Virus record (IMG/VR): IMGVR_UViG_3300009537_000197
Span: 1 to 22,398 of that record
Origin: a virus
DNA length: 22,398 nt
Strand: one strand, 5' to 3'
Both the position numbers and the translations under genes were made by a program. The notes below the pieces were generated by a model, which worked only from the letters and a program-made list of their open reading frames with translations, ran no database searches and was not told where the DNA came from. Positions 3,801-22,102 of the stretch are shown one piece after another (within the stretch, counting starts at the first letter, position 1; each line of letters opens with the position of its first letter).

Positions 3801-4010
3801 ATGCAATTCAACAAACAAGCCCAGGCAGCAAGAGAGAGAGGTATAAGAGATTATGAAGCCGGACTAAGTTTAGATCAAAACGCTTTTAGATATTTCGCTA
3901 ATTCTCAAGGTGCTATTTCTCTCATGGCACAGTGGGATGCTGGCTGGAAGATAGCTGAACTTAAAGATAAAGACCCCGAGCAATATAAAAAATTGATGTC
4001 CACCCAATAA
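3801..4010 (+). CDS. Rmf/CrpP-like small protein
   Basis: 69-aa protein with a strong ribosome binding site (AAGGAG at 3788-3793). The pattern RGIRDYEAGLS, then an Asn-aromatic segment, then QWDAGWKIAEL resembles the small ribosome modulation factor (Rmf)/CrpP fold, in which a Gly-containing helix, an N-P-Y-like turn and a W-x2-G-W helix recur. Known Rmf proteins inactivate ribosomes by dimerisation in stationary phase; CrpP-like homologues occur widely on mobile DNA. Here the canonical Pro-Tyr is replaced (NAFRYF), so the match is fold-level only. It lies in a unit with its own promoter (3314) and terminator (4086-4131), which suggests an accessory gene expressed independently of the virion genes. 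Confidence 0.55.
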   Translation: MQFNKQAQAARERGIRDYEAGLSLDQNAFRYFANSQGAISLMAQWDAGWKIAELKDKDPEQYKKLMSTQ

Positions 4011-4085
4011 TCCACTTGCTTTTCTCACCATAATTTGATATAGCTTAAACCACATACACCCTACACCTCATCAACACGCGAGGAC

Positions 4086-4147: not shown

Positions 4148-7060
4148 ATGCAAGCAGGCGCAATACCTATAGGCACGAGTGTTGGGAGTTCAGGCCTTAT
4201 AAGCGTCAGGAATAACCAGCAACTTGACGAGATGAACCGTCAAAGATTTTCTCGCGCAGTCACTAAGAACCCAGACGAATCACTTACCCATCTTTCCGGC
4301 TATCTCAAGAACTATTGGGAAAAAGCCAAACAAGCAAAAAGAACAATCGAGAACAGGCTTGTCAAGTGCAAGCGTAATGTCGAAGGCGAGTACGATGCCG
4401 GGAAGCTGGCTGAAATACAACAAATGAGTGGCTCGGAAGTCTTTATGATGATCACAGCCCAGAAGAAGCGTGATGCTAAGGCTTGGATTATGGATATTCT
4501 GAGGCCTGTGGGAGCTTCTGAGCGACTTTATACCCTCGCCCCTACACCTATCCCTGATTTACCTCAAGATATCGTAGAAGAGCTTGAATCTCGTGTTATG
4601 AACGTCATGATTCAAGACTTCATTGTTCAGTCTGCAATGGAGGGTCAAGAAATAGATCCCGACCAGTTGCCGGGGATTATGGAAGGCATGGTAGCCCAGG
4701 TTAAAGAGTTGGTGCAGGACGAGGTAGACGAGAGAGCCCTGGAAGTTATCGAGAAGATGAGCAGGAAGATTGACGACCAGTTAGTAGAAGGCAAGTGGTA
4801 CAAGGTTTTCAAAGATGTAGTAGATGATTTCTGCACCTATCCTTCTGCAATTATGAAGGTGCCGGTTTTAAAAAGAAAGAAGAAGAAGACCTACGCACCA
4901 GACCCCATGACCGGAAAGATAGGAATAGTGGTAGAGAAAAAAATTTCAGTATGCTTTGGAAGAACAAGCCCTTGGGACTTCTATCCTTTTGCCGATGCTT
5001 TTATATCCGATGAAGGATACCTGCAGGGCGGATGTGTAGAAAGACATCGCCTTACCAGAAAAGAATTGCAGTCGTTTATAGGCGTTCCTGGATTTAAAGA
5101 GGAAAACATCAGGAAGGTACTCGAAGAATATGGAAAAGGTGGTCTCCGTGAATGGCTATGGACTGACGCAGAGAGGGCAACCCTTGAAGGAAAACCAAGT
5201 TACATCCCATCAGAGAAGATCGATGCTCTTCAATATTTCGCTTCTATTCCCGGAAATCTTCTATTGGATTGGGGTATGGAACCTGACGAAGTCCCGGACG
5301 CAGACATGGATTACGAAGTTGAGTGCTGGCAGATAGGAAACTATGTGATAAAGGCCGTAAATACTCCTGATAAGTTGGATAGGACACCTTATCTCATATC
5401 TTCTTTTGATAAGGTGCCGGGTTCTATTTGGGGCAATGCGCTACCTGAATCCATAGAAGACACGCAGACAATGTGTAACGCAGCTGCAAGAGCTGTTCAC
5501 AATAACATGGGAATAGCCTGTTTGACAGGGGATACGGTTGTTTATCGTCACGAGCGCAAAGGCGCAACGAAACAGAGAAAGCATGATGATCACAAATTGG
5601 TTGAAGTGACTCTTGATGAACTATGGGAACAGAAGCATAAGAAAAATAGTGGACTAAGACGAAACTGCTTACGGTCACTGGATGAGTCAACCGGTGAGTT
5701 TTATGGAAATCGTGTAGTTGATATTTTTAATAACGGAATTAGAGATGTATTCCGTGTGACTACAGCAAAGGGATATTCTATCAAGGCCACAATGAATCAT
5801 CGGTTTATGAGCGACGATGGTGACTATAAATTCCTTGAAAACTTCTCAATAGGCGATTTGATGGCAGTCAATGGCACATCTTTAACACCTCGACCTACAT
5901 GTATCGACTGCGGTGCAGGGATAAGTAAAAAACCTACAGCAGTGCGCTGTAAATCTTGCGCAGCAAAAATAAACACATGGAATGTAAAACAGGCAAGGGA
6001 AGCCCTCGATAATAAGGACGCTTCTGAGACTACAGCAAGAGGCAGAAAGCTTGTCAGGGACCAAATGAAAGACTCTTGTGAAGAATGTGGGCGCACAGTC
6101 AGGCTGCATATTCACCACATGGACAAAGATCCTATGAATTGCGAGCCAAGTAACTTAAAGACCCTCTGTGAACCATGTCATAAACAATGGCATGTTAGGC
6201 ACGATAATCTTGGAAACTCCTTAAGGCATGTCTTTGTAGATTATGACGCTATCGTCAGCATAGAGCCTCTCGGGAAAGAACGTGTCTTCGACCTTCAAAT
6301 GGAGGCTCCTGATCATAACTTTGTGGCAAATGGTTTTGTATCTCACAATTCTGGTCCCCAGGTAGAGATAAACACCGAAAGAGTAGACAACCCGGACGAT
6401 ATCTGGCCGTGGAAAATATGGGAAGCCACTGATGATCAGATGGGTAGCGGTGCTCCTGCAGTTAGGTTCTATCAGCCCTCTATGCATGCAGAGCCTCTTA
6501 TGGCTATCTACGACAGGTTTAAGAAAGAGGCGGACCATCATTCCGGGATACCGGCGTTTGCCCACGGCGATACGCAGGTTGGCGGCGCGGGCAACACGTC
6601 AAGTGGATTAAATATGCTCATGTCTGCTGCAGCGAGAGGAATTAAGGCAGCAGTGTCTAATCTTGACATGGACATAATCGCGGAAGGCGCCGAAAGAATG
6701 TACGACCACAATATGCTTTACGACTTAGATGAAAGTCTGAAAGGTGATGCAAGGGTTAAGGCCGGCGGTAGTGCGGCACTGATAGCAGCAGAGCAGTTGG
6801 CGGTCAGGCGCGGTGAGTTCCTTGACAAAACGAATAACGATATAGACATGACAATCATAGGCCTTAACGGAAGGGAGTACCAGCTTAGAGAAGCGGCGAA
6901 ATCCGTAGAGCTCGACCCGGACGAATTGATAAAAGGCGGCGGGATGGCGCTACAAGGGCAACCCACGGGGCAACAAGGGAAGCCGAAGGTTTTGCTCCCG
7001 GATGGGTCAGAGGCAGGTGGTGACAAAGTTAAAATAGATAGAAATGATGGAGGCACATGA
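4148..7060 (+). CDS. Portal protein precursor with intein
   Basis: Encodes 970 residues, of which 277 (458-734) are an intein; the mature portal would be 693 aa, close to P22-type portals. The portal forms the dodecameric ring at one capsid vertex through which DNA enters. The N-terminal part is helix-rich (MNRQRFSRAVTKNPDES, then KNYWEKAKQAKRTIENRL), and the C-terminal extein contains the portal-like ADHHSGIPAFAHGD and a Gly-rich loop followed by SSGLNMLMSAAARGIKAA. The start ATG has a good AAGGAGAG site at 4136-4143. The exteins join as NNMGIA + SGPQVEIN, giving a seamless portal sequence. The gene follows terL in order but is separated from it by the promoter/ncRNA/terminator cassette. It overlaps the next gene at its stop. 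Confidence 0.92.
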   Translation: MQAGAIPIGTSVGSSGLISVRNNQQLDEMNRQRFSRAVTKNPDESLTHLSGYLKNYWEKAKQAKRTIENRLVKCKRNVEGEYDAGKLAEIQQMSGSEVFMMITAQKKRDAKAWIMDILRPVGASERLYTLAPTPIPDLPQDIVEELESRVMNVMIQDFIVQSAMEGQEIDPDQLPGIMEGMVAQVKELVQDEVDERALEVIEKMSRKIDDQLVEGKWYKVFKDVVDDFCTYPSAIMKVPVLKRKKKKTYAPDPMTGKIGIVVEKKISVCFGRTSPWDFYPFADAFISDEGYLQGGCVERHRLTRKELQSFIGVPGFKEENIRKVLEEYGKGGLREWLWTDAERATLEGKPSYIPSEKIDALQYFASIPGNLLLDWGMEPDEVPDADMDYEVECWQIGNYVIKAVNTPDKLDRTPYLISSFDKVPGSIWGNALPESIEDTQTMCNAAARAVHNNMGIACLTGDTVVYRHERKGATKQRKHDDHKLVEVTLDELWEQKHKKNSGLRRNCLRSLDESTGEFYGNRVVDIFNNGIRDVFRVTTAKGYSIKATMNHRFMSDDGDYKFLENFSIGDLMAVNGTSLTPRPTCIDCGAGISKKPTAVRCKSCAAKINTWNVKQAREALDNKDASETTARGRKLVRDQMKDSCEECGRTVRLHIHHMDKDPMNCEPSNLKTLCEPCHKQWHVRHDNLGNSLRHVFVDYDAIVSIEPLGKERVFDLQMEAPDHNFVANGFVSHNSGPQVEINTERVDNPDDIWPWKIWEATDDQMGSGAPAVRFYQPSMHAEPLMAIYDRFKKEADHHSGIPAFAHGDTQVGGAGNTSSGLNMLMSAAARGIKAAVSNLDMDIIAEGAERMYDHNMLYDLDESLKGDARVKAGGSAALIAAEQLAVRRGEFLDKTNNDIDMTIIGLNGREYQLREAAKSVELDPDELIKGGGMALQGQPTGQQGKPKVLLPDGSEAGGDKVKIDRNDGGT
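5519..6349 (+). mobile_element. HNH-containing intein in portal gene
   Basis: In-frame insertion of 277 codons, residues 458-734 of the precursor. Block A is CLTGDTVVY, with the nucleophile Cys458; block B has T548 and H551 in TMNHRF; the C-terminal block reads VFDLQMEAPDHNFVANGFV and ends in His733-Asn734, followed by extein Ser735. These are the residues needed for self-splicing, so it looks active. The central insert carries two CxxC pairs (CIDC, CKSC) followed by an HNH nuclease (CEEC, LHIHHMDKDP, SNLKTLCEPCHKQWH), which would cut intein-less portal alleles to promote homing. No stop or frameshift interrupts it. Confidence 0.92.
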
Positions 7061-7284: not shown

Positions 7285-7544
7285 TGAAGGTATTTACCCC
7301 TGCAGAGAAGACACTGATGGCGATGGTCGCCCTTGAAAGGGACGAAGACTTCGTGGAAGTTATGACCTACCTGGAGGCCAATGAAATATACCTGGCCAAG
7401 CTCGCCTGTAAGATGCCGGAAGAGAGGGGTTCAGCTTTATGCCAAGGGGGGTCGGCAACGATTACGTCCTTCATAGGGCAAGTATCAGAAGCAAGAGAGT
7501 CCTTGGAAAAATTAAGGTCCAAGGAAGCTAAAAAGCAGAAGTAG
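7284..7544 (+). CDS. Hypothetical 86-aa helical protein
   Basis: Begins MKVFTPAEKTLMAMVALERD and ends in a Lys-rich tail (KLRSKEAKKQK). Its ATG overlaps the previous stop by one base (TGATG), the usual coupled arrangement. Largely helical and charged. Small helical proteins between portal and scaffold genes occur in many phages, but I cannot assign a role. A TTG at 7281 would add one residue only. Confidence 0.7.
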   Translation: MKVFTPAEKTLMAMVALERDEDFVEVMTYLEANEIYLAKLACKMPEERGSALCQGGSATITSFIGQVSEARESLEKLRSKEAKKQK

Positions 7545-7545
7545 C

Positions 7546-7674
7546 CGGAATACCTCAGTAGAGGCTCCGTTATTTTAGTCGAATACCGCTTAGTCGGCTC
7601 GACACCAAATAAAGCAAGTCCGAAGACCGTAAAGTCGGCTCGGGAATAGATGAAGACCGTAGAGTCGGCTCATC
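7546..7674 (+). repeat. Four tandem hairpins with co-varying stems
   Basis: Four copies of one architecture: a variable outer stem, a 5' internal loop ATA or AGA, a 12-base inner hairpin, a single C on the 3' side, and the outer stem's other strand. Outer stems are CGGA/TCCG (7546-7549/7566-7569), TCGA/TCGA (7579-7582/7599-7602), CCGA/TCGG (7620-7623/7640-7643) and GATGA/TCATC (7649-7653/7670-7674). Inner hairpins are CCTC/GAGG in copy 1 and CCG/CGG in copies 2-4. The outer stems differ in sequence yet always pair, so the structure, not the sequence, is preserved. Copy 4 ends just before the scaffold ribosome binding site. Confidence 0.8.
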
Positions 7675-7689
7675 GAAAGGAGTGAGATC

Positions 7690-8637
7690 ATGGCATTACC
7701 AAAAGCAGTTTTAAAGCAGCAGGAAGAAGCGGCAAAGATCATTGAAGCAAACAAGAAGAAAGACGAGCTAGTAGCTCCGGTAGTTGAACCTGTAGTTGAA
7801 CCTGTAGTTGAACCTGTGGAAAAGCCAGTTGTTGAGTCTATCACAGCAGAACCGGCCCTTACAGTATCAGGGACACAACCTGACCCCTCAGACCAGAGAT
7901 ACAATGTTTTGCAGGGGAAGTACAATAAAGAGGTTGTGGAAGTAAGGCAGGAGAACAAGAAGCTTGCAGACCTTGTAACTTCTCTCTCTGCGAAAGTAGA
8001 AGGGTTGGAAGCAGGAGCAAGCCAATCAGTAAGCCAGCCAACGCCCACTACTGCCAACGCAGCCCTGGAAAAAATCAGGGAAGATTATGGAGATGATTTC
8101 GTCGATCTGATAGTAAACGCTTCAAGGAGCATTGCCAAGGAGGAAGTAGCAGGGGTTAGAACTCAAATGGATTCCGTTGTGGAACGTCAGGTAAAGACAG
8201 ACGCGGAGAAGTTTTCAGAAGCGTTGATCAGATCAGTGCCTGATTGGGACAAGATAAACAAGATGCCACAGTTCGCAGAGTGGCTTCAAACGGGAGATCC
8301 GATAGTAGGTGTGTCTTACGGAACGCTTGCTATGGACGCAAACCAGAACCTCAATGCTCCAAGACTCGCTGCGGTTTTCAATAAGTTCAAAAGTGAAAAT
8401 CCAAAACTGTTTAAAGGTAAGGTAGATCCACTAGAAGCCCTCGTATCACCAGATGGAGGGTCAGGAGGTAGCGCAGACGTAGCACTTACGGAGTCCACAG
8501 TGCCGACCATATCAAGAGCGGAAATGTTGCAGTTTGCAAAAGACGTTTCAGTGGGTAAGTACAGAGGACGCCAGGAAGAGCAGGCCAAAATGCAAGCCAA
8601 GATAAATGCGGCCACAATAGCCAAGCGCATAACGTAA
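7690..8637 (+). CDS. Probable capsid scaffold protein
   Basis: 315-aa, charged, mostly helical protein located between portal and major capsid genes, the standard position of the scaffold that templates procapsid assembly. After a helical start (MALPKAVLKQQEEAAKIIEA) comes a VEPV repeat linker (about residues 30-45), then a coiled-coil-like segment (VVEVRQENKKLADLVTSLSAKVEGL), a central domain and a basic helical C-terminus (GRQEEQAKMQAKINAATIAKR) of the type scaffolds use to contact coat protein. It has a strong AAGGAG site and is preceded by four structured hairpins. Assignment rests on position and composition rather than a conserved motif. Confidence 0.75.
   Translation: MALPKAVLKQQEEAAKIIEANKKKDELVAPVVEPVVEPVVEPVEKPVVESITAEPALTVSGTQPDPSDQRYNVLQGKYNKEVVEVRQENKKLADLVTSLSAKVEGLEAGASQSVSQPTPTTANAALEKIREDYGDDFVDLIVNASRSIAKEEVAGVRTQMDSVVERQVKTDAEKFSEALIRSVPDWDKINKMPQFAEWLQTGDPIVGVSYGTLAMDANQNLNAPRLAAVFNKFKSENPKLFKGKVDPLEALVSPDGGSGGSADVALTESTVPTISRAEMLQFAKDVSVGKYRGRQEEQAKMQAKINAATIAKRIT
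7780..7815 (+). repeat. 12-bp tandem repeat in scaffold gene
   Basis: Three exact copies of GTAGTTGAACCT encode Val-Val-Glu-Pro units; imperfect VAPV and VEKPV versions flank them. Identity at the base level implies recent slippage. The unit is a multiple of three, so the linker can change length without a frameshift. Confidence 0.9.
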
Positions 8638-8691: not shown

Positions 8692-11297
8692 ATGGGAATC
8701 GGACTAGCAGCAGGGCATCCGAATTATAGTTCGGACGGAGATTCAAAATTTATCCCTTGCCTTTAAATTGGGGATGTAAAACCCTCTCTGAATAACTGGA
8801 ACCGAACTTCGGGTGTCGGAACCAGATGAAACCGCAAAAATAAAAAAACTAACGCAGTTCGGAGGAATCCATGAAGCGACTAAGTTGGAAATACATAGCA
8901 GGTCTAATTGATGGGGAAGGTTGTTTGGACTTTCAGCAAATAACCAACAAGAACTATCCAGGAAGGAAGTACTTAACACCACGGGTAAGATTAACATTCG
9001 CAACCCCTGGGTTACAGGTCTTAGAAATGATGCAAGCCAATCACGGAGGCTCATTAAATCACAGGACAGTAGATAATCCTAACTGGAACGACTCAGCAAC
9101 CTGGCAGATACAGGGAAGGAAAGTTAGACCTTTTATTCAAAATATCGTTAATCACTTGATTATAAAGAAAGAACAGGGGAAGTTCCTGATCTGGTTTATA
9201 GACAACGTGATGGGCAAGCACCAAACAAAGGAAAATAGGGAGTGCGCCAAGAACGAATTGAGTGCTATGAAGGCGGATCAGCAGAGACTAAGCGAGAGGG
9301 CAGCGCGAAAGATTCAAGGCTTGATTAAGGAAAAAGAAGAATCAAAGTCTTGGTCTGAAAATTACGAAGCTTGTACTGAATGTGGCACAACAAATACACG
9401 GCATGGGTCAAAAGGTAAATGTGTTAATTGTGACAAGAGGTACAAAAGGAAAGCTCGTAGCGCTGATGCGATAGTCCACCCGGCTTAAGAGCCGGCAGGA
9501 AATATGGAGCACGAATTTGCTTGTCAAGTTCTACGCTGCCACAGTTTTCGCGGATATCTGTAATACCGAGTACGAGGGTAAGTAATTTTGCTCTCGCTAA
9601 ACTCCTTTAATTGCGGGGATACCCTTAGAGCCCTTACTACGATACCATCCGGTAACGAGATGGCGTTCCGTAAAAATGTAAGGGATTGGGCAATCCGCAG
9701 GCAAGCCTCCTGTAACCAGGTGGAAGCTTCAACGACTAGAGTTAGTAGCCTAAGTCTTAAAGATATGGTAAACGCTCCACGAATGGGGAGATTTATTACT
9801 TGCGAGATTAAAAAGACTGGTGATATAGTACGCTCCAAACTAAATGGAGGTAGTGCTATGCAAGGGAAAAGAAAGCTTGACGTTGTCTTTACTAAAGAGA
9901 TGCTGGAAGAAGATTATCTGGAACTGAAGTCAATGTTGAAGATTTCCAAAAAGTATGGGGTTAGCAAAAAAACTATACTGAATTACATGAATAAGTTTGG
10001 GATATCTAGGAGAGAATGGGTAGTGCCAGTGAAAGATGTTCGTTTGCTCGCTGTCCAAGGATTAGACTCTAAAGAGATCGCAAAAGAATTAGGTGCATCC
10101 AGAACAACAGTGAATAAAGTAGCCAAGGCAAATGATATCGAAGTGGTCAATAGGTATCATAAAGGTTATATTGTCACTCACAATGGATATACCATGGTTC
10201 AGCGCCCAAAACATGTACAAGCAGATAGTAAAGGTTATGTAAGGCTCCACCGTTTATTGATGGAAGAGCACATAGGCCGCACGTTAGATTTATGTGAGGT
10301 AGTCCACCATATTAACGGGGATAAGTCTGATAACCGAATTGAGAACCTTGAAGTGATGATGAAAGCAGACCATGTTAGACATCACCATACTGGGAAAGTA
10401 GGAAGAGGCCCTAGCAAATCACCAAGAAAAAACGCGAGAGTAAGTAAGATATAGTCTGGACTTGCCCGAGAGGGTAAGAAGGTAGGATAAAGAGCCTACT
10501 GATAACAAACGGAAATAAAGCAAATGGGGGACAAGGTCCACATCAGAACTGTCCCCGATGTGCAAATCAAGACGTACAAGAAGGGAATGAAGCTCGTCTA
10601 TGAAAACCTGGAAAGTGACAGCGTTGAGCTGAACATCGACCAGGGTGAGTATTTCGGCTTCCTGGTTGACAGCGTTGACGCATACCAGTCAGATCTCAAT
10701 CTGATTGATACATGGTCGGCAGACGCGGCAGAGCAGATGAAGCAGAAGATCGACACCGGTATCCTTGGTGCCATCTACGCCGATGCTCACGCCAGCAACT
10801 CAGGTTTGACAGCAGGGGCAGATTCAAGCTCCTACAACATGGGAGTAACTGGTACGCCGGTTGCAGTCACAAAGTCAAACATCCTTGACTACCTGGTAGA
10901 CATGGGTAGTGTACTGGACGAGCAGAACATACCTGAGAGCGACAGGTTCGTTGTAATCCCTACCTGGATGGCCGGCCTCATCAAAAAGTCCGACCTGAAA
11001 GACGCCTCTCTCAGCGGTGATGGTACTTCCATGATGCGTAATGGAAGGCTCGGTATGATCGACAGGTTCACCCTGTACTCATCTAACAACTACACCGCTG
11101 TCACAGATGGCGCGAACAGTTGTTACAACACCATTTTCGGCCACAAGTCTGCGACCACGTTTGCAGCTCAGATGACCGAGATGGACACCCTTAAGGCAGA
11201 GTCGGCCTTTGGTCAACTTGTCCGTGGTCTTAACGTCTACGGGTACGAGACAATCAAAACCGAGTCTCTTGGTAACTTCTACTGCTACAAAGGTTAA
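8692..11297 (+). CDS. Major capsid protein, three exons split by two group I introns
   Basis: The coat protein is encoded by exon 1 (8692-8757, 22 codons), exon 2 (9499-9579, 27 codons) and exon 3 (10512-11297, 261 codons plus stop), joined to give 310 aa. The joined N-terminus reads ...DSKFIP-EIWSTNLLVKFYAATVF...NTEYEG-EIKQMGDKVHIRT..., which restores the beginning typical of this HK97-like coat family: the N-arm, the EIWS segment and the GDKVxIRT strand. Start ATG 8692 has GGAGG about 8 bases upstream. Without splicing, translation would stop two codons after exon 1 (TGC CTT TAA) and right after exon 2 (AAG TAA). Splice sites were placed from the IGS pairings and the coat reading frame. Confidence 0.88.
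8758..9498 (+). mobile_element. Group I intron 1 in capsid gene
   Basis: 741-base intron. The exon end AUCCCU (8752-8757) pairs perfectly with the internal guide GGGGAU (8770-8775), with the diagnostic U-G wobble at the 5' splice site. P7 can form from GACUA (8878-8882) and UAGUC (9472-9476), the latter in an S-like element GATGCGATAGTCC. A P9-like hairpin CCGGC/GCCGG (9480-9484/9491-9495) precedes the terminal G at 9498. Upstream, CTGG..CCGA pairs with TCGG..CCAG around an ACTTCGGG-type loop (about 8798-8825). The remaining core helices are less clear to me. It carries a LAGLIDADG ORF. Confidence 0.82.
8871..9488 (+). CDS. LAGLIDADG homing endonuclease in intron 1
   Basis: 205-aa homing endonuclease that would cut intron-less capsid genes so that repair copies the intron. 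The signature IAGLIDGEG lies at residues 9-17. Only one copy of the motif is evident, so it probably acts as a homodimer. A C-terminal extension carries CTEC (168-171) and CVNC (184-187), a zinc finger after a Lys/Glu-rich helix, likely an added DNA-binding module. GGAGG precedes the ATG. The start codons overlap the P7 5' strand and the stop (TAA, 9486-9488) falls in the P9 loop, so the coding frame runs through part of the ribozyme core. No frameshift is seen. Confidence 0.9.
   Translation: MKRLSWKYIAGLIDGEGCLDFQQITNKNYPGRKYLTPRVRLTFATPGLQVLEMMQANHGGSLNHRTVDNPNWNDSATWQIQGRKVRPFIQNIVNHLIIKKEQGKFLIWFIDNVMGKHQTKENRECAKNELSAMKADQQRLSERAARKIQGLIKEKEESKSWSENYEACTECGTTNTRHGSKGKCVNCDKRYKRKARSADAIVHPA
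9580..10511 (+). mobile_element. Group I intron 2 in capsid gene
   Basis: 932-base intron with textbook elements. P1: exon CGAGGGU (9573-9579) with guide GCUCUCG (9590-9596), U-G at the splice site. P10: 3' exon GAAAU (10512-10516) with AUUUU (9585-9589). P4: UGCGG (9612-9616) within AATTGCGGGGA, with CCGCA (9695-9699) within AATCCGCAGGCAAGCC. R element GCTTCAACGACTAGA (9726-9740); S element AAGATATAGTC (10446-10456); P7 is GACUA/UAGUC. P9 is CTTGCCC-GAGA-GGGTAAG (10461-10478) with a GNRA loop. The intron ends in G at 10511. It encodes an HNH endonuclease. Confidence 0.93.
9858..10454 (+). CDS. HNH homing endonuclease in intron 2
   Basis: 198-aa protein. Two helix-turn-helix-like segments (about residues 19-50, SKKYGVSKKTILNYMNKFGI, and 60-96, SKEIAKELGASRTTVNKVAK) precede an HNH_3-type nuclease: GYVRLHRLLMEEHIGR, then VVHHINGDKSDNRIENLEVM (about 127-168) and DHVRHHH, with His150/151, Asn159 and Asn163 as the core. 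It is expected to cleave intron-less capsid genes. I chose ATG 9858 for its GGAGG; the frame is open upstream to 9588, but that part is the ribozyme core (P4, P6, P7). The stop TAG lies inside the S element. Confidence 0.92.
   Translation: MQGKRKLDVVFTKEMLEEDYLELKSMLKISKKYGVSKKTILNYMNKFGISRREWVVPVKDVRLLAVQGLDSKEIAKELGASRTTVNKVAKANDIEVVNRYHKGYIVTHNGYTMVQRPKHVQADSKGYVRLHRLLMEEHIGRTLDLCEVVHHINGDKSDNRIENLEVMMKADHVRHHHTGKVGRGPSKSPRKNARVSKI
10512..11297 (+). CDS. Major capsid protein exon 3 (bulk of coat protein)
   Basis: Contains the coat domain proper, from EIKQMGDKVHIRTVPDVQI to the C-terminus ending NFYCYKG. The ATG at 10524 is an internal Met that gene callers could mistake for the start: it has no convincing Shine-Dalgarno, and four coding codons (GAA ATA AAG CAA) precede it immediately after the intron 2 end. 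Confidence 0.88.
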   Translation, partial: EIKQMGDKVHIRTVPDVQIKTYKKGMKLVYENLESDSVELNIDQGEYFGFLVDSVDAYQSDLNLIDTWSADAAEQMKQKIDTGILGAIYADAHASNSGLTAGADSSSYNMGVTGTPVAVTKSNILDYLVDMGSVLDEQNIPESDRFVVIPTWMAGLIKKSDLKDASLSGDGTSMMRNGRLGMIDRFTLYSSNNYTAVTDGANSCYNTIFGHKSATTFAAQMTEMDTLKAESAFGQLVRGLNVYGYETIKTESLGNFYCYKG

Positions 11298-20231: not shown

Positions 20232-22102
20232 TGGGTAAATGGTGCGGAGGTAATTGTGGAATAGGCACTCCATGGGAAGATGGAGTAACTCCACATTGCG
20301 GAGCAAATGAACCTTGGGTGGATGGAGCAACCCCACACTGCGGGACAGAAGCTCCATGGGAAGATGGAGTAACTCCGCACTGTGGGACACAAGATCCTTG
20401 GGTAGATGGGAGTGTTGATTTTTGTGGTGTGCAACCTCCTTGGGTAGATGGAACTAATCCCTACTGTGGAGTACAAAGTGAGTGGGGTGATTCTTTCACC
20501 GGAGGCCTACACGTAGTTGCCGTATCAGGAACAGGTTGCAATATTTTATACAATCTAATAGGCGATGAAACTACTCTTTACCCTGTTACAGATATACAAG
20601 TTAGAACAGTTATAGATGGGAATAAAGTAGAGACGTCTTGGTCAGCTTGGGCACCTGTGGTAGGGCAAGCTACATTAGCAAATGCAGCTGATTTTATTGC
20701 AATAGGGAAATCAGATTTCTGTGGTATAGAATATAAAGGAATTGATGCTTGTGGTAATGTTATAGCAACTAAGGTATTACCTCTATTAGATTGTGCTGCT
20801 TGTGGAGGAGGGAGTATTGTAAGTGGATTGACTGCTTTAGCATGGGCAGCCAATGCACAGTATGCTTTCGATAACACAGACGGAGATACTGTCAATTGGG
20901 AAGTTGTTGGTACAGTAGGTAGCGGAGGTGGAATAGATAGTGGCGGTTTACTTGCGACAGGTGTTGCACCTAAGTTAGCCTGTTTTGATGAATCTTTGGT
21001 TATTAAAGGGTATACTCGTTGTTGCCAAGGAGAACTTATAGCGATTGTAGACCACAACTCTCGTGCCTTATGTCCTTCTTCAGAGGCGCATAGTATAGCA
21101 GGTGTGAGCAAGGTAAATAACTGTGGCGATACTGCACAGTATACTCTTCTTGATGCCAGAGGAAATTCCGTAGCTGCTACTTGGCGTATTGTTAATATAG
21201 GAAGCGGCAGTGCAGGAACTGATGGTAATATAAGTACAAGTGGCTTATTAACTACTGGCGCAGGTTGCTCTGGTATAGTGGTAATAGAAGGACGTAGTAC
21301 TGAAAGTTGTTGCGGAGCAGAGAAAACTATATCAATGCCGGATATTTTACCTCTGCCTGGTGCTTGTGATGGAAGAGTTTTACAAACTATAAGCCAAGTA
21401 ACAGCTCCCTGCGGAACAAATACTTTTCAGGGAGGCTCATCAGGAGGACTAGGAACTGTTGCGTATTATGTAGATGATATGTTTAATACAGTTAATGAAG
21501 CTGGGGATAGCTTTTCAATAGACGCAAACGGACTTATTACGCTTAATGGATGTAGTAGTGGTTGGCCTCCTTGGATAATGTATTGGGCCTGTGATGATTG
21601 TGGTTGTTCCTCTGGTACTATATGGTTAGAAGATTGTTCGGATGATTGTTGCGTAACGCCTTGCAACCCTTTACCTACAGTAACAGGGGCTGATACAATA
21701 GGGCCAAATACGACAGGGCAATATACTCTTAATAATTCACAAGGAACAGTTACATGGGCAATAAGTGGTTCAGGTTTTTCGATAGACCAGAGCGGATTAG
21801 TTACAACGTCTAGTGCTTGTGGCACGGCTAATATAACTGGAACAGATGATTGTTGTGGGGAGTTTACAAAAGATATACGGTCTACTGAGGGGACTTGGGG
21901 GGTTGAGTATTTAATATGTCCAGAGATACCCGGTTGTTGTGCGGGGGCACATGTTTGGGGATTTTGTACAATAGGTGCTAGTAGATTTCGTGGGTGTGCG
22001 GCAAATGCTATAGAGAATTGTGGCGGTGACCTTTGTGATCCAGATAGTGTTAATAGATACGCTTGCTGGACATATCAAGTAGACTGGGAGTGTGTGCCGT
22101 GA
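20231..22102 (+). CDS. Cysteine-rich Ig-like repeat protein
   Basis: 623 aa with about 42 cysteines (roughly 7%), very unusual for a phage protein. Residues 14-83 are five 14-residue repeats of the form PW(E/V)DGxxPHCGxxx, with a partial sixth (EWGDS). The remainder contains about four Big2-like beta modules, each ending in a strand such as IDQSGLVTT or GNISTSGLLTT (clear examples around residues 195-248, 293-358 and 505-560), interspersed with CC and CxxC pairs. There is no signal peptide and no catalytic motif. The gene reads as more A/T- and TGT-rich than its neighbours. The product could be a metal-binding or disulfide-stabilised virion surface adhesin. Confidence 0.65.
   Translation: MGKWCGGNCGIGTPWEDGVTPHCGANEPWVDGATPHCGTEAPWEDGVTPHCGTQDPWVDGSVDFCGVQPPWVDGTNPYCGVQSEWGDSFTGGLHVVAVSGTGCNILYNLIGDETTLYPVTDIQVRTVIDGNKVETSWSAWAPVVGQATLANAADFIAIGKSDFCGIEYKGIDACGNVIATKVLPLLDCAACGGGSIVSGLTALAWAANAQYAFDNTDGDTVNWEVVGTVGSGGGIDSGGLLATGVAPKLACFDESLVIKGYTRCCQGELIAIVDHNSRALCPSSEAHSIAGVSKVNNCGDTAQYTLLDARGNSVAATWRIVNIGSGSAGTDGNISTSGLLTTGAGCSGIVVIEGRSTESCCGAEKTISMPDILPLPGACDGRVLQTISQVTAPCGTNTFQGGSSGGLGTVAYYVDDMFNTVNEAGDSFSIDANGLITLNGCSSGWPPWIMYWACDDCGCSSGTIWLEDCSDDCCVTPCNPLPTVTGADTIGPNTTGQYTLNNSQGTVTWAISGSGFSIDQSGLVTTSSACGTANITGTDDCCGEFTKDIRSTEGTWGVEYLICPEIPGCCAGAHVWGFCTIGASRFRGCAANAIENCGGDLCDPDSVNRYACWTYQVDWECVP
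20270..20479 (+). repeat. Five 42-bp tandem repeats
   Basis: Each unit encodes Pro-Trp-Glu/Val-Asp-Gly-x-x-Pro-His-Cys-Gly plus three variable residues. Units 1 and 3 are closely similar at the base level (both begin CCATGGGAAGATGGAGTAAC), suggesting an 84-bp higher-order duplication. Units 4 and 5 diverge (DFCG, PYCG). Confidence 0.9.

Follow-up and report, generated by a model that had tools for sequence, protein, structure and literature searches.

A widespread RNA hairpin motif at the start of a phage scaffold-like gene that probably sets the amount of scaffold protein

The window analysed in this study is the full 22,398-nucleotide stretch of a 22.4-kb virus record (IMGVR_UViG_3300009537_000197). 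Between its portal and major capsid genes lies a plus-strand gene at 7690-8637, encoding a 315-aa protein with long helices that belongs to phrog_13678, a family of 'unknown function'. The same family was matched by all 47 aligned homologues of this protein, one of which also gave a weak match to a 'head scaffolding protein' family. No library gives the name 'scaffold' to the phrog_13678 protein; we use it because the gene sits between the portal and major capsid genes, its AlphaFold2 model is mostly helical (pLDDT 82), and it holds the same place in relatives, with the order portal/scaffold-like/capsid also found in Rhizobium phage RHph_TM3_14A. Sequence and fold searches of Pfam and PDB with the scaffold-like protein returned no informative match, a viral model search led to other uncharacterised proteins, and neither its sequence nor its AlphaFold2 model resembled a known RNA-binding domain. 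Among named phages, megablast of the window found no match, and tblastn with five scaffolds found only four Rhizobium phages. Inside the gene, a short tandem repeat (GTAGTTGAACCT x3.2) occupies 7780-7817.

The neighbouring head genes are interrupted in several places. Within the portal gene (4148-7060) lies an intein (PF14890) that resembles HNH endonucleases. The major capsid gene (8692-11297) is apparently split: 8692-8766 encodes MGIGLAAGHPNYSSDGDSKFIPCL and a stop, the phrog_267 match of the capsid body at 10524-11297 starts only at position 72, and the two parts are separated by a pair of HNH endonuclease ORFs and by a group I intron match below threshold (9570-9791, E 2.5e-7). In a related phage (L198), a group I intron (RF00028, above gathering, 5022-5946) was found just 3' of the scaffold gene. 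The head genes seem to be a hot spot for mobile introns. Near the far end of the window, at 20269-20409, a 42-nt unit is repeated 3.4 times close to where a cysteine-rich 623-aa ORF begins.

A small ORF ends at 7544 and the scaffold gene begins at 7690; the space between them contains four units built to one plan. In each, an outer stem strand ending in GA is followed by ANA, a 12-nt inner hairpin of the form CC..GG, a single C, and an outer strand that begins with UC. Copy 1 (7546-7569, plus strand) reads CGGA-ATA-CCTCAGTAGAGG-C-TCCG, with its outer stem at 7546-7549/7566-7569, ATA at 7550-7552, the inner hairpin at 7553-7564 and the single C at 7565. Copy 2 (7578-7603, plus strand), GTCGA-ATA-CCGCTTAGTCGG-C-TCGAC, has its outer stem at 7578-7582/7599-7603, ATA at 7583-7585, the inner hairpin at 7586-7597 and the C at 7598. 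In copy 3 (7619-7644, plus strand), TCCGA-AGA-CCGTAAAGTCGG-C-TCGGG, which contains one G-U pair, the corresponding parts are 7619-7623/7640-7644, AGA at 7624-7626, 7627-7638 and 7639. Copy 4 (7649-7674, plus strand), GATGA-AGA-CCGTAGAGTCGG-C-TCATC, comprises 7649-7653/7670-7674, AGA at 7654-7656, 7657-7668 and 7669, and its 3' end is separated by a 1-nt gap from the Shine-Dalgarno (SD) sequence AAAGGAG of the scaffold gene (7676-7682, plus strand), which is placed relative to the hairpin as at other loci. Direct reading thus confirmed the coordinates and layout of the four hairpins at 7546-7674 that had first been noted in this sequence.

Beyond the constant GA/UC, the outer stems of the four window copies are paired at 11 of 11 positions despite their differing sequences, which by our own arithmetic has a chance of about 2e-5 at 6/16 per position. 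The folding energy z was -0.99 for the whole leader and -1.3 to -2.5 for single copies; being weak evidence, it was set aside as proof of structure for the window leader. The strong part of the case for the window hairpins is comparative. A covariance model, R2, built from other subfamilies without the window sequence or its close relatives, ranked the four window copies first in the window: copy 1 at 7544-7571 (19.8 bits, E 8e-4), copy 2 at 7577-7604 (25.7 bits, E 1.1e-5), copy 3 at 7618-7645 (20.3 bits, E 6e-4) and copy 4 at 7648-7675 (20.7 bits, E 4e-4). The E values of the four thus run from 1e-5 to 8e-4, and the next match was not below E=0.16.

When units from other homologues, recovered by protein similarity, were compared, such as CCAA-ACA-CCGG.ATAC.CCGG-C-TTGG, GTGA-ATA-CCCCG.GCAA.CGGGG-C-TCAC and TCGGA-ACA-CC.GCAAG.GG-C-TCCGA, what stays constant is the 3x1 internal loop, asymmetric in form (5' A-ANA-C / 3' G-C-U) and set between two short stems; the stems and the hairpin loop change from unit to unit and show covariation. 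The original layout therefore holds for the window subtype, but the 12-nt inner hairpin does not stand as the conserved core, which is the internal loop. The outer stem measures 3-8 bp and the inner stem 2-5 bp. The pair closing the internal loop is usually A-U, the others being U-A (L279), G-C (L395 and L397) and C-G (L396), and the middle and third bases of ANA can vary (ACC, ATC). The AUACC/GGC of the unit is loosely like what we take to be the theophylline aptamer core. One leader (L388, about -90 to -20) carries two direct copies of GCTGACCGTTAAGTCGAAGCCCG, whose CCGTTAAGTCG apex is the same as in the window subfamily while the internal loop is apparently rearranged; this may be a unit that has diverged.

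The spread of the motif was assessed in a homologue set of 120 clusters at 85% identity, or 60 groups at 50% identity. With a model R1 (E<=1), the motif was found near the gene start in 86 of the 120 distinct scaffold homologues and in at least 42 of the 60 groups, and at least 10 clusters beyond the 86 were judged by eye to carry it. No recognisable copy is present in about 15-20 of the 120 homologues, among them those of the only named phages (the Rhizobium RHph_TM3_14A group), so that control by the element is not essential to the scaffold family. At E<=0.1, R1 gave 93 matches within 260 nt of a scaffold start on the sense strand, against one match elsewhere in about 1.4 Mb searched on both strands; likewise, a descriptor of the motif matched at 3.52/kb around scaffold starts, compared with 0.073/kb elsewhere and 0.074/kb on the opposite strand.

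The loop-side and inner-hairpin pattern was also scanned over all viral contigs, ignoring outer stems and gene context. The result for this unscreened 14-letter pattern was two-humped, with outer stems of 0-2 bp, taken as chance, at 92 of 126 sites and of at least 4 bp at 31; the sites in L052/L058, L011, L104 and L015 were put aside as chance pattern matches. A sharper pattern, GAAGACCGTNAAGTCGGCTC, searched without conditioning on the gene, matched 16 contigs, 14 of them with the match just 5' of, or at the start of, a scaffold homologue gene, and the remaining two (L052, L058) represent one common coding sequence. Allowing the inner-stem letters to vary added 38 contigs; a CCG/CGG inner stem occurred in none of them, and most lacked a long outer stem. 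These were rejected as chance, indicating that a CCG..CGG core typifies the window's subfamily alone.

Carriers are almost all uncultured; cultured ones are prophages in Pseudomonas alcaligenes NBRC 14159, Stutzerimonas xanthomarina DSM 18231 (where the unit has U in place of the single C), Endozoicomonas and Bowmanella. Prophage carriers were found in distant hosts, namely Pseudomonas, Neptuniibacter, Endozoicomonas, Desulfobacteraceae and a Campylobacteraceae MAG.

Across all matches, 118 double-sided changes were counted, compared with 40.6 in shuffles, and the covariation score was 0.534, compared with at most 0.09 with slid partners; the double-change counts lean towards structure because the matches came from a structure model. 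R1 itself was seeded from sequences selected for pairing, so its A-U closing pair and the pair counts are partly ascertainment. Less of this bias affects the position statistics and the swap test. In the latter, at start-codon loci, 71% of motifs had at least 6 pairs with their own sides and 29% with swapped sides (33% when sides were swapped between loci with the same peptide start), and at a threshold of at least 7 pairs the values were 39% and 9%. The start-codon class keeps the peptide M(S)ALP through different codons and hairpin registers, and the non-coding 5' side changes along with it, as seen in the MSALP loci L315 (GGA-ACA-CGC..GCG-C-TCC), L292 (AGA-AGA-CGG..CCG-C-TCT), L275 (GAGA-ACA-CGC..GCG-C-TCTC) and L311 (GGTA-ATA-CGC..GCG-C-TACC). 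It had been reasoned that relatives keeping the genes and losing the pairing would speak against a selected structure. The opposite was found, with pairing kept at about 20-30% scaffold identity; in the first aligned set, the scaffold proteins are only about 20-26% identical. With an element that is widespread and covarying, and with R2 recovering the window copies, the proposal of a selected RNA structure was borne out, and we regard a conserved RNA element as near certain.

These data also bear on a DNA-level element, such as a phage RNA polymerase promoter hairpin or a packaging or recombination site. The units are palindromic and close to the gene start, as such an element would be; however, the strict sense-strand orientation, a position set by the ribosome-binding site, the codon-level compensation in copies containing AUG and the nesting of units all speak against it, and it is strongly disfavoured, with hardly any probability left to it.

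Units occur in tandem, nested, within the early coding sequence or around the start codon. Among the 109 R1 matches near the start (E<=1), 57 lie wholly in the leader and 38 extend over the start codon; a further 12 start no earlier than the annotated gene start, a few of these reflecting only a miscalled start (L194, L276, L318). Most leader copies stand 0-7 nt away from the SD. The remaining ones are chiefly the inner units of nested pairs, in which it is the outer unit that extends to the SD. At start-codon loci, the Shine-Dalgarno strand itself serves as the 5' outer strand and AUG or GUG lies inside the hairpin. On their own these hairpins are of marginal stability (-5 to -6 kcal/mol), as expected where a ligand is needed, and units without a start codon are stable (-9 to -14 kcal/mol). 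Such placement at the ribosome-binding site, together with the stability pattern, is expected of an operator clamped shut by a protein. Extra units were seen inside the gene at about codon 20-30 (L236 172-199, L244 4993-5020, L159 3906-3933, L056 3035-3062, L038 160-187). Several of these encode G/A-N-T-x-x-x-A in one fixed frame, and here an RNA constraint may be shaping a linker of the scaffold protein.

Upstream of the first unit, terminator-like hairpins were observed within 120 nt at, for example, L091 (about 3950-4030), L056, L043, L235 and L244; none occurred in the 38 loci of the start-codon class. In L091 and L032, a promoter-like TTGACA/TTGACT stands a short distance 5' of the terminator, an arrangement that would suit the production of a small RNA there. 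Terminator-like sites were present in 14 of 43 leader loci, compared with 13 of 860 random windows, which makes it plausible that transcripts start or are processed close to the element. This would suit an element that promotes expression through 5'-end protection, as an RNase processing site, or as a ribosome standby or enhancer, and so would tandem leader hairpins upstream of an accessible SD. Since tandem hairpins alone do not hide the SD, activation or mRNA stabilisation is possible for the tandem leader class. Against a promoting role, the specific 3x1 loop is left unexplained by it, as is the start-codon class, in which the unit enfolds SD and AUG, and units of about 9 bp are generally short for RNase III; a T7-type RNase III site has a long stem (20 bp or so), and the stems here are of 3-8 plus 2-5 bp. 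We consider this explanation improbable.

Translational control of the scaffold gene is likely. As expected of an operator, the conserved RNA structure lies at the ribosome-binding site or start codon, and its base pairs covary by both the covariation counts and the swap test. As expected of autogenous control, it is restricted to the scaffold gene: no other gene in 25 whole phage records, capsid and portal genes included, carries a copy, and nothing convincing was found in six host genomes outside such a prophage. Translational feedback, one of the functions first proposed, is the best supported, because copies of nearly every class either border the ribosome-binding site or include it, and the element was seen at no other gene. 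Autogenous control is the simplest circuit, since the scaffold gene alone carries the element, and we infer repression rather than activation. Our favoured reading, to which we give somewhat better than even chances, is a cis-acting operator of the scaffold gene under negative feedback, with the scaffold protein as the most likely ligand.

In the proposed mechanism, the last unit would abut the SD (tandem or nested leader), or would itself hold the SD strand and start codon. A phage protein, most likely scaffold in excess and free of procapsids, would bind the internal loop, stabilise the hairpin and block the 30S subunit. Scaffold synthesis would thereby be matched to capsid assembly, and several units per mRNA could give cooperative, dose-dependent repression.

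The scaffold protein is the putative ligand; the main rival is the capsid protein. The same operator could be bound by free major capsid (or portal) protein, which would repress scaffold synthesis. The placement and enrichment data fit equally, both genes are neighbours of the scaffold gene in an order that the window and the Rhizobium phage have in common, and RNA-phage coat proteins repressing replicase offer an analogy for capsid protein. However, neither the capsid nor the portal gene carries a copy in the 25 phage records, and autogenous control is the published mode of phage operators like those of gp32 and gp43 (PMC3014915); we judge this ligand unlikely. A host factor such as a ribosomal protein, through which the phage would tap host regulation, would suit the carriage of the motif by prophages of distant hosts if that protein were universal. 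The lack of strong copies in the six host genomes outside a prophage and of any Rfam ribosomal-protein leader match makes it very unlikely.

With about equal odds, this is an undescribed RNA family in which the scaffold is a sequence- and structure-specific RNA-binding repressor of its own mRNA, acting through modular 3x1-loop hairpins that report procapsid assembly and are sited in the leader, at the start codon or in the coding region. The suggestion of an undescribed tandem motif held up, since it is widespread and matches no Rfam family: in Rfam 15, the window gave no match at gathering cut-offs and its element none at E<=10 (riboswitches, ribosomal leaders, c4 and phage RNAs included), 19 related loci yielded only one group I intron at gathering cut-offs, and no paper on the motif was found in the open-access literature. 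Taken together, the hairpins probably constitute a widespread and so far undescribed RNA control element through which the amount of scaffold protein is set.

The matching of scaffold supply to capsid assembly in tailed phages has been studied genetically in P22, and we know of no defined RNA target for it. The present element is a defined, portable RNA whose natural covariation is a ready-made mutant set, and its ligand can be sought directly in cultured hosts with carrier prophages. The element further offers a compact example of codon choice and the register of a gene start both being shaped by an RNA constraint, and possibly a new RNA-protein tethering pair.

Several known systems invite comparison. 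The MS2/R17 coat operator is a single hairpin with a bulged A and an ANYA-type tetraloop. Like it, the present unit is a short hairpin interrupted by unpaired bases and is located at a ribosome-binding site or start codon, where it would control a gene linked to structural assembly. In contrast, it has a 3x1 ANA/C internal loop with freely varying hairpin loops in place of the bulged A and tetraloop, and it belongs to the scaffold gene of dsDNA tailed phages in several tandem, nested or in-gene copies. The P22 scaffolding protein reportedly autoregulates (Wyckoff and Casjens, 1985), and its gene likewise lies between portal and coat; R1, however, found no match in the P22 head-gene region (22000-31000, E<=3), so the RNA element is not common to P22, and the head regions of T7, phi29, A118, phiCD27 and the Rhizobium phage gave no R1 match either. 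The candidate RNAs GP20-a and GP20-b lie upstream of GP20 scaffold-like genes of Firmicutes phages and resemble the present element as structured RNA candidates upstream of a phage scaffold-type gene, whereas the window element matches no Rfam model at E<=10; RF02937 was rejected as a GP20 RNA, being Clostridiales-2. In T4, RegA, gp32 and gp43 repress translation by binding operators at ribosome-binding sites, that of gp43 consisting of a leader hairpin (UAAC loop) plus ribosome-binding-site sequence and that of gp32 of a pseudoknot (PMC3014915). These cis RNA sites, overlapping or just 5' of the AUG, share the autogenous logic proposed here (PMC3014915); they are single sites of replication genes, whereas the present element is a modular internal-loop unit found across dozens of protein groups.
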